A stretch of 64,000 nucleotides of DNA from Teichococcus aerophilus (lineage in GTDB: Bacteria > Pseudomonadota > Alphaproteobacteria > Acetobacterales > Acetobacteraceae): positions 124,001 through 188,000 of the forward strand of contig NZ_JACTVA010000004.1 of NCBI RefSeq assembly GCF_014490485.1. The letters run 5' to 3'. A model generated the notes under the pieces. It ran no database searches and was not told the DNA's origin. It saw nothing but the letters and a program-made list of their open reading frames with translations. This document shows positions 17,484-21,518 of the stretch, in pieces (the first letter of the stretch is position 1; every line of letters starts with the position of its first letter). Made by a program: the position numbers and the translations under genes.

Positions 17484-18827
<1,344 letters not shown>

Positions 18828-18837
18828 GCGACCTGGC

Positions 18838-20511
18838 GTGACCAATGCCGAGATCCGCTTCCGCCCCGCGGCGGAGGCGGATTTCGCGTGGTATCTGGAC
18901 CTCTCCATCCGCACCTTGCGCGACCAGCTGGAAGCGCTGGGGCGGTGGGACCCGGAGCGCCGGCGCAACCGCGCGCGGGCTTCTTTCGACACCGGCGAAT
19001 TGCGGGTGGTCGAGCGTGCCGGGCAGCGCCTCGGCACCGTGGCGCTGGGCATCCAGGACGACCACGCCGAGATCCATAGCTTTTATCTGGAGCCCGCGTT
19101 GCACGGCCAGGGCACCGGCGCCGCCATCCTGCGCCTGCTGCTGGCGGAGGCCGCCGCGCTGCGACCGGCCCGCCCCGTGCGGCTGGAAGTGCTGAAGCGG
19201 AGCCCGGCCGCGCGCCTGTACGAACGCGCCGGCTTTGTCCGCGCCGCCGAGCAGGACTATGACTGGCTTTATACGCTTCCCCTTTCTCCACCGGAGTCGA
19301 ACCCAGCGATGCCTGCTCTCGCCGAACGCCTGAAGGACGTCACCGTCTCCCCCATCGTGGCGATGAGCACGCGGGCCCGCGCGCTGAAGGCCGAGGGCAA
19401 GCAGGTGATCAGCCTGGCCGTGGGCGAGCCGGATTTCCCGACGCCGCCGCATGCGGTGGAAGCCGCGCACCAGGCGGCGTTGCGTGGTGAGACCAAGTAC
19501 CCCGCGCAGGATGGCGGCGTGCCGCTGAAGACGGCCATCCAGGCCAAGTTCAGGCGCGAGAACAACCTGGACTACGCGCTGGACGAGATCTGCGTCTGCA
19601 ACGGCGGCAAGCAGGTGCTGATGAACGCACTGCTGGCCACCGTCAGCCCCGGCGACGAGGTGCTGATCCCGGTGCCCTACTGGGCCAGCTATGGCGAGAT
19701 GGTGAAGCTGGCCGGCGGCAAGCCCGTCTATGTGAACTGCCCGCAGAACAACGGCTTTAAGCTGCGCCCGGAGGACCTGGACGCCGCCATCACGCCGCAG
19801 ACCAAGATGCTGATGCTGAACTTCCCGAACAACCCGACCGGCGCCGGGTGCTCGCGGGAGGAGATGCAGGCCCTGGCGGCGGTGATGCTGAAGCACCCGC
19901 ATGTCTGGATCCTGACCGATGACATGTACGAGCACCTGGTGTTCGACGGCTTCAAGTTCTGCACGATCGCCGAGGTGGAGCCGCGGTTGAAGGACCGCGT
20001 CATCACCGCCAACGGCGTGTCCAAGACCTATGCGATGACGGGCTGGCGCGTCGGCTATGCCGGTGGCCCCAAGGCCGTCATCAAGGCGATGGTGAACATG
20101 CAGGGGCAGGTGACCAGCGGCGTCAGCGGCATCACCCAGGCCGCCGCGCTCGCCGCGCTGGAAGGGCCGCAGGAGCTGGTGGCCGAGCGCGCCGCCATCT
20201 ACGCCCAGCGGCGCGACCTGGTGGTGGAGATGCTGAACCAGGCCCCCGGCATCGTCTGCCACAAGCCGGAAGGTGCCTTCTACGTCTACCCCAACATCGC
20301 CAGCTGCCTGGGCAAGACCACGGCTGGCGGCCGGCGGATCGAGACCGATGGCGACTTCGCCCTGGCGCTGCTGGAGGAGAAGCTGGTGGCCACCGTGCAT
20401 GGCGGCGCCTATGGCATGAGCCCGTACCTGCGCATTTCCTACGCCACGGATACGGAGAGCCTGCGCGAGGCCTGCACCCGCATCCAGGATTTTTGCAAAG
20501 GCCTGTCGTGA
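18838..20511 (+). CDS. GNAT acetyltransferase-aminotransferase fusion
   Basis: One frame of 557 codons from GTG 18838. Residues 1-150 form a GNAT domain (IRFRPAAEADFAWYLDLSI, motif A HSFYLEPALHGQGTGAAIL, RLYERAGFVRA). Residues 158-557 form a class I aminotransferase (ISLAVGEPDFPTPPHAVEAA, NFPNNPTGAG, NGVSKTYAMTGWR with PLP Lys near 396). It aligns without obvious gaps to the preceding aminotransferase. The linker (LPLSPPESNPAMPALAERL) contains an internal ATG at 19309 with GGAG 12 bases upstream, so the aminotransferase may also be made alone. The fusion looks like loss of the GNAT stop codon; a sequencing error is a less likely alternative. The acyl acceptor is unknown. Confidence 0.8.
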   Translation: MTNAEIRFRPAAEADFAWYLDLSIRTLRDQLEALGRWDPERRRNRARASFDTGELRVVERAGQRLGTVALGIQDDHAEIHSFYLEPALHGQGTGAAILRLLLAEAAALRPARPVRLEVLKRSPAARLYERAGFVRAAEQDYDWLYTLPLSPPESNPAMPALAERLKDVTVSPIVAMSTRARALKAEGKQVISLAVGEPDFPTPPHAVEAAHQAALRGETKYPAQDGGVPLKTAIQAKFRRENNLDYALDEICVCNGGKQVLMNALLATVSPGDEVLIPVPYWASYGEMVKLAGGKPVYVNCPQNNGFKLRPEDLDAAITPQTKMLMLNFPNNPTGAGCSREEMQALAAVMLKHPHVWILTDDMYEHLVFDGFKFCTIAEVEPRLKDRVITANGVSKTYAMTGWRVGYAGGPKAVIKAMVNMQGQVTSGVSGITQAAALAALEGPQELVAERAAIYAQRRDLVVEMLNQAPGIVCHKPEGAFYVYPNIASCLGKTTAGGRRIETDGDFALALLEEKLVATVHGGAYGMSPYLRISYATDTESLREACTRIQDFCKGLS

Positions 20512-21518
20512 GCGCCGTGCTCCACAACACCGTCATCCGCCCCGGCCTCGACAGTGACGAGGCCGGCTATATCCGCCTGATCGGCGATGCCTGGGCCGAG
20601 TACCCCAACTGCATCCTGGACGTGGATGGCGAGGTGCCGGAGCTGCGTGCCCTGGCCACCTATTTCGCCAAGGCCGGCGGTGCCCTGTGGGTGGCGGAAG
20701 AGGCGGGGCGGCTGGTCGGCATGGTCGCCACCCGGCCGCTGGGCTCCGACAACGCCTGGGAAATCTGCAAGATGTATGTGGAGAAGTCCCAGCGCGGCAC
20801 CGGCCTGGCGCACACGCTGCTGGGCGGGGCGGAGGCGCACGCCATCCAGGCCGGCGCGCACCGCATCGTGCTCTGGACCGACACGCGCTTCGATGCCGCG
20901 CACCGCTTCTACGAGAAGCGGGGCTTCGTCCGCTCCGGCTCCATCCGCATCCTGGACGATATCTCCAAGTCGCTGGAATTCCGCTACGCCAAGCCGGCGC
21001 GCGGCGTGGTGGTGGAGGCGCTGGACGCCGCCGCCGCCGCCAGCGCCGAGCGCCGGCTGGCGGAGATCCTGGTTGCCTGTGTCGATGCCGGTGCCAGCGT
21101 GTCCTACCTGCCGCCGCTGTCGCTGGAAGCGGCGCGCAGCTTCTGGCGCAAGGTCTCGGGCGATGTCGCCATGGCCAACCGGCTGCTGCTGGTGGCGTGG
21201 GTAGATGGCCGCATGGCCGGCACGGTGCAGCTGGACCTCGGCACTCCGGCCAACCAGCGCCACCGGGCGGAGTTGGCGAAGCTGCTGGTGCACCCGGATT
21301 TCCGCCGCGCCGGCACCGGCCGCGCGCTGATGCAGCGGGCGGAACAGGCGGCGCGCGGCATTGGCCGCACGCTGCTGACGCTGGATACCCGCGCCGGCGA
21401 TGCGGGGGAGGCGCTGTACCGCGAGCTGGGCTGGCAGGAAGGCGGCCGCATTCCCGACTATGCCGTAGACGCCGAGGGGCGGCTGCACGATACCATCCTG
21501 TTCTACAAGAAGATCTGA
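20508..21518 (+). CDS. Double-domain GNAT acetyltransferase
   Basis: 336 residues from a GTG that overlaps the preceding stop by four bases. Two GNAT domains lie in tandem. The first (about 1-160) has the acetyl-CoA motif CKMYVEKSQRGTGLAHTLLG and HRFYEKRGFVRSGS. The second (about 165-336) has KLLVHPDFRRAGTGRALMQR and YRELGWQEGGRIPDYAVD. Both keep the R/Q-x-x-G-x-G/A acetyl-CoA loop, so both may be active. Translational coupling to the GNAT-aminotransferase suggests a shared pathway, possibly acylation of an amino acid. The substrates cannot be read from the sequence. Confidence 0.85.
   Translation: MSAVLHNTVIRPGLDSDEAGYIRLIGDAWAEYPNCILDVDGEVPELRALATYFAKAGGALWVAEEAGRLVGMVATRPLGSDNAWEICKMYVEKSQRGTGLAHTLLGGAEAHAIQAGAHRIVLWTDTRFDAAHRFYEKRGFVRSGSIRILDDISKSLEFRYAKPARGVVVEALDAAAAASAERRLAEILVACVDAGASVSYLPPLSLEAARSFWRKVSGDVAMANRLLLVAWVDGRMAGTVQLDLGTPANQRHRAELAKLLVHPDFRRAGTGRALMQRAEQAARGIGRTLLTLDTRAGDAGEALYRELGWQEGGRIPDYAVDAEGRLHDTILFYKKI

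Follow-up and report, generated by a model that had tools for sequence, protein, structure and literature searches.

Haloferax Cas11b is produced by internal in-frame translation of cas8/cas10, with a mass-spectrometry peptide and start-codon mutation in support (PMC11899642). For operon neighbours that overlap and are translationally coupled, spacings of -1 nt and -4 nt are enriched, according to a review (PMC12548453). At the protein level, the two aminotransferases considered below, AT1 and AT2, align nearly end to end with the aspartate aminotransferases AatA and AatB of Rhizobium meliloti (6f77 and 6f35), whose chains of 400 and 410 aa, unlike the fusion described here, leave no room for a GNAT domain. 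We analysed a locus at which AT2 is joined to a GNAT acetyltransferase within a single reading frame that still contains the AT2 start site.

The fused frame and its domains

In the window (the whole 64,000-nt stretch of DNA that was analysed), a frame scan revealed one open frame of 557 aa on the + strand, running from a GTG at 18838 to a TGA at 20509-20511 with no internal stops. Residues 1-147 (18838-19278, + strand) were identified as a GNAT acetyltransferase domain by Pfam, an AlphaFold2 model and Foldseek, residues 148-157 (19279-19308, + strand) form a linker, PLSPPESNPA, of low confidence in the AlphaFold2 model, and residues 158-557 (19309-20511 with the TGA, + strand) constitute AT2, a class I aminotransferase domain (PF00155, 1.1e-77). 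When the whole fusion was compared with Pfam, two GNAT models matched residues 47-139, both over their gathering scores (PF13508, 6.2e-10, 39.8 bits with a cut-off of 27; PF00583, 1.4e-9, 38.7 bits with a cut-off of 20.7), and Aminotran_1_2 (PF00155) matched residues 189-549 over profile positions 2-361 of 361 (3.1e-77, 260.6 bits). AlphaFold2 modelled the GNAT part alone, from 49 sequences, as a complete GNAT fold with a mean pLDDT of 90.4. The model of the full fusion contained both folds (mean pLDDT 87.6, pTM 0.69), from an alignment of 33 sequences in which the GNAT part was covered by only four; residues 150-158 were the sole stretch with a pLDDT below 50. Thus the open frame, the Pfam matches and the modelled folds agree, confirming that 18838-20511 is a genuine in-frame GNAT-AT2 fusion, as the preliminary description of this DNA had claimed in stating that a GNAT domain runs in frame into a complete aminotransferase.

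Members of the GNAT superfamily carry an acetyl-CoA loop with the motif Q/R-x-x-G-x-G/A. The loop glycines, Gly92 and Gly94, were invariant in 49/49 aligned GNATs, and residue 89 (window 19102-19104) was Gln in 48 of the 49 and His in the window's protein. His89 is private to the window's genome among the aligned GNATs, and may weaken cofactor binding. The GNAT domain had also been called complete, and its fold and Pfam matches bear this out, with the replacement of the cofactor-loop Gln as a flaw. A Foldseek search with the GNAT model returned 588 PDB chains with an E of 0.001 or less; of the 50 that were listed, almost all carried labels of GNAT-type acetyltransferases. A sequence search returned three PDB sequences (best E 0.0011). 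Since both the sequence and the fold searches yielded only generic GNAT-type enzymes, we do not propose a substrate.

The GTG of the GNAT part lies 10 nt past the stop codon of AT1, a class I aminotransferase gene directly upstream (17625-18827, + strand; PF00155, 2.6e-83). By phmmer, the closest solved structure to AT1 was R. meliloti AatA (552 bits to 6f77 versus 478 bits to 6f35), and AT2 was about equally far from AatA (487 bits to 6f77) and AatB (472 bits to 6f35). Residues Lys396, Asn332, Asp361, Tyr364 and Arg532 of the fusion, at positions with catalytic roles in class I aminotransferases, were among those that did not vary across the 33 rows of alignment A3 (four fusions and 29 aminotransferase rows), which also served for the model of the full fusion. 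The best-scoring NCBIfam family was PRK06107 aspartate transaminase (NF004769), with 504.6 bits for the fusion and 528.3 bits for AT1; because these scores are below the curated cut-off of 617, neither protein is filed as that equivalog. Downstream, a double-GNAT gene (20508-21518, + strand; two GNAT stretches in Pfam) starts with a GTG that overlaps the AT2 stop codon by 4 nt (GTGA), and is followed by a DinB-family gene from 21523. The double-GNAT gene stood behind AT2 in 19/19 loci (L001-L019). AT2 in the window has GNAT coding sequence on both flanks.

Fused and unfused junctions in relatives

An uninterrupted full-length match to the fusion was found in 4 of the 58 genomes searched, namely the window's own (G000), G002, G007 and G013. 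All four belong to one genus, of which 17 genomes were available, and searching the retrieved loci with the whole fusion sequence turned up exactly four different fused proteins. At the level of the family, GNAT was detected at E <= 1e-15 in 43/397 genomes from 6/102 genera. An open frame of at least 550 aa was present in three of these 43 GNAT-bearing genomes (G000, G007 and G013; G002 was not among the matches of the 397-genome search), the next longest being 467 aa.

The preliminary description had proposed checking whether sister species keep a stop codon between the domains. Three sisters of the same branch, G001, G006 and G015, keep the two genes apart. In G001 the GNAT stop codon and the AT2 start codon share one base (TGATG), in G006 GNAT overlaps AT2 by 17 nt out of frame, and G015 has a TGA 19 nt upstream of the AT2 ATG. 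In the fused genomes the DWLY codons and the ATG are 33, 33, 33 and 36 nt apart; the corresponding distances in the unfused genomes are 35, 37 and 40 nt. Because the junction lengths vary by indels, frame shifts as well as stop codons set the fused or unfused state.

We surveyed the surroundings of GNAT at 55 loci, among which some genomes may have been entered twice and which were covered only as far as the retrieved flanks reached (407 nt at L047 and some 1500 nt at many others). AT1 was upstream of the GNAT gene at 54 of these loci, and AT2 was downstream, either within 171 nt or fused or overlapping, at 42. Outside the seven genomes above, the end of GNAT lay 31-171 nt ahead of the AT2 ATG in 34/35 adjoining loci, gaps being counted up to the codon preceding the ATG. 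The exception, L063:1110-1595 from a metagenome assembly, has a GNAT that overlaps AT2 out of frame by about 25 nt and so resembles G006. L195 (G346) was the only GNAT locus of the 55 without AT1 upstream, and had no aminotransferase downstream within 1.5 kb. This arrangement suggests that gnat and AT2 share one operon, and, since GNAT is regularly flanked by AT1 and AT2 across loci, the fusion unites long-standing operon neighbours. The combination of acyl transfer and transamination, which had been described as an unusual pairing, is consequently less odd than it looks, as the GNAT gene adjoins aminotransferase paralogues in most loci.

The AT2 start site within the linker

The linker DNA contains a Shine-Dalgarno-like GGAG (19293-19296, + strand), conserved across the genus genomes, and, after 12 nt, an ATG (19309-19311, + strand; Met158 of the fusion) at the position where free AT2 proteins begin. 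The earlier statement that the linker keeps a GGAG and an ATG at the usual aminotransferase start was therefore correct. The sequence CGGAG was present 11-13 nt ahead of the AT2 ATG in 17/17 genus genomes, fused or not, and at exactly 12 nt in 15 of them; a conserved internal Shine-Dalgarno sequence with a start codon is thus a feature of the whole genus and of 4/4 fused genomes. The CGGAG and ATG were also present in G008 and G016, the two genomes in which a search of the 17 genus genomes gave no GNAT match. Since the start site occurs in all 17 genomes, including these two, it most likely predates the fusion, and the GGAG-ATG start is most likely ancestral. The same GGAG was retained in G006, although it is read there in another frame.

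Among the four fused linkers, which represent about three lineages, CCGGAG and the ATG were invariant at 9/9 bases versus 3/12 of the bases between them (one-sided Fisher test, 0.0007; 0.005 for CCGGAG alone). Four sequences make a small sample, and retention of CCG GAG and ATG may in part reflect codon bias (contig GC 0.692) and a conserved Pro-Glu. Across the contig, GGAG, AGGA or GAGG was enriched 6-13 nt before ATGs situated close to the 5' ends of 151 open frames. This signal peaked at 8-10 nt, and at 12 nt, on its long edge, was 0.025 versus a background of 0.014. No strong RNA fold was found over the internal start (z +0.96).

Fused and unfused states on the trees

The tree of concatenated rpoB and gyrB contained 17 genomes, three of which (G009, G014 and G015) were represented by one gene only: the tree omitted rpoB of G014 (in two pieces) and of G015 (not found), and gyrB of G009, for which there was just a lower-scoring gyrB-type match. 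The two pieces of G014 rpoB (C4:3252690-3256821) overlap by two bases, a possible assembly frameshift. The four fused and three unfused genomes formed one clade (100/100), within which the fused species were not a clade. Fused G000 paired with unfused G006 (99/99), and fused G002 plus G013 (100/100) paired with unfused G001 (100/99). G007 and G015 branched in an unsupported order (47/19). The minimum number of changes between the fused and unfused states was three on the rpoB+gyrB, gyrB and AT2 trees alike. Support for G000 plus G006 was 67/96 on gyrB alone, and the AT2 tree, weakly supported, lacked this pair and placed G006 with G002 plus G013 at 68/45. The clean alternation of states depends on the rpoB+gyrB tree.

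The fusion had been interpreted as a young one formed by loss of a stop codon. Given the mixed states on the trees, the at least three changes and the indels at the junction, this is not supported as stated; a single young stop-codon loss finds no support in the trees and the state models (see below).

Origin of the fusion

We consider it probable that the spacer between the two genes has collapsed and its frame drifts, that AT2 is still started internally so that the fusion and free AT2 are both made, and that the arrangement is near-neutral. According to this explanation, gnat and AT2, as operon neighbours, would have lost most of the intervening spacer, and the GNAT frame of four species would enter AT2 in register; the linker would still hold the ribosome-binding site and ATG that AT2 had ancestrally. 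Ribosomes coming from the GNAT GTG would produce the GNAT-AT2 fusion, and those binding the GGAG and starting at the internal ATG would produce ordinary free AT2. Judged from these signals, both proteins are probably produced. With an AT2 supply independent of the GNAT frame, that frame could drift, which would explain why relatives are found in fused, overlapping and separate states. A random junction would be expected to be in frame and open with a frequency of about 0.27 (a one-in-three chance of the right frame, multiplied by that of 12 codons without a stop at 0.0187 stops per codon, the rate found in off frames of coding sequence). Under such a random frame, the probability of four or more fusions in seven genomes is 0.09, and that of three or more in six lineages is 0.20. 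As the observed fusions fit this expectation, selection need not be invoked for the fused state, which we infer to be close to neutral, a reading based on a failure to reject the random frame in a very small set of genomes.

Alternatively, the fusion could be a selected bifunctional enzyme, its two parts acting in the same pathway, with tethering helping through channelling or fixed stoichiometry and the internal start being a dead relic. We regard this as unlikely. The GNAT gene is found in six genera of the family, usually between aminotransferase paralogues (the 42 of 55 loci above), which makes a functional link plausible, and both folds look intact in the models. GNAT is also under constraint by the dN/dS estimates, which ranged from 0.03 to 0.53 across eight pairs and in none of them reached 1; the lowest, 0.03 over 139 codons, was for G002-G013, both of them fused. 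However, GNAT dN/dS exceeded that of AT2 in six of the eight pairs (the exceptions being G002-G013 and G001-G013), pointing to less constraint on GNAT than on AT2 in those six, and the window's GNAT is without the loop Gln. Selection for tethering is further at odds with the unfused state of close sisters and the three changes required, with the retention of the ribosome-binding site in 4/4 fusions, and with the 31-171 nt that separate the genes in 34/35 other adjoining loci.

A loss of one stop codon in an ancestor, the unfused sisters having split again later or being products of faulty assembly, is in our judgement quite unlikely. Such a loss would agree with the junction of G015, where the TGA immediately precedes CCGGAG and differs by a single base from the CGA found there in G002 and G013. 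Two-state models gave a probability of the fused state of 0.58-0.69 for the three inner ancestors under unequal rates, which also favours it, but only 0.25-0.39 under equal rates; for the common ancestor of the seven genomes it was 0.14-0.40, depending on the model and on the root order. The equal-rate and unequal-rate models hardly differ in fit, and by these models either ancestral fusion with later breakages or repeated fusion may underlie the states. A single ancestral loss would still need two later losses, and it does not take account of the indels that also set the frame (junctions of 33 to 40 nt).

We give little credence to the idea that GNAT is a decaying passenger and that only AT2 from the internal start matters. 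The GNAT of G003 (L051:1379-1797), behind AT1, is divided between two reading frames and therefore looks frameshifted or decaying; AT1 ends 178 nt before its matched part. The missing GNAT matches in G008 and G016, the higher GNAT dN/dS in six of eight pairs and the His89 found in the window alone of 49 GNATs would fit the same idea, whereas a dN/dS below 1 in 8/8 pairs and the invariance of Gly92 and Gly94 in 49/49 GNATs argue against it. Finally, an assembly or base-calling error that deleted a stop codon or shifted the frame was rejected as the cause and has a negligible chance of being correct, since nothing specific speaks for it beyond what holds for any draft genome (the assembly behind the window consists of 140 contigs), and since four assemblies share the uninterrupted fusion with differing linker sequences, which makes sequencing error very unlikely.

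Returning to the collapsed spacer with an internally started AT2, the GNAT-AT2 fusion is more than an oddity, given that close relatives alternate between the fused and the unfused state. We suggest tentatively, as a possibility that we would not yet favour, that the junction is labile: relatives might switch back and forth among fused, overlapping and separate states via small indels, the ancestral internal start buffering AT2, and the aminotransferase of fused species might form mixed dimers that carry none, one or two tethered acetyltransferases. One operon gene pair in one genus offers a natural series of separate, near-touching, overlapping and fused junctions in which the AT2 start is always retained. 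It provides a concrete case for how early gene fusions may survive while the free second enzyme is preserved, and cautions that a single open frame does not necessarily mean a single product.

Comparison with known systems

We found no GNAT-aminotransferase fusion in the parts of the open-access literature that our search covered, only a different fusion, the N-acetylglutamate synthase-kinase. Frequent metabolic gene fusions have been described (PMC4921024) that likewise join neighbouring metabolic genes; in the main text of that article the word 'acetyltransferase' occurs 0 times and 'aminotransferase' once, for another fusion.

The enriched spacings of coupled genes given in the review cited at the outset are matched by the TGATG of G001 (-1 nt) and by the GTGA between AT2 and the double-GNAT gene (-4 nt). 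Unlike such coupled overlapping genes, the fusion of the window and its counterparts in the three fused sisters have no termination codon between the coding parts. The Cas11 system is like the fusion in having a single frame, an internal Shine-Dalgarno-like site with an ATG, and long and short products that share their C-terminal part. It differs in that the dual GNAT-AT2 products are predicted from sequence, that the proteins are unrelated, and that AT2 of the relatives is a separate gene. Taken together, the locus is a fusion, confined to one lineage, of genes that have long been operon neighbours; it has the ancestral start inside and is as such a variant of known behaviour.
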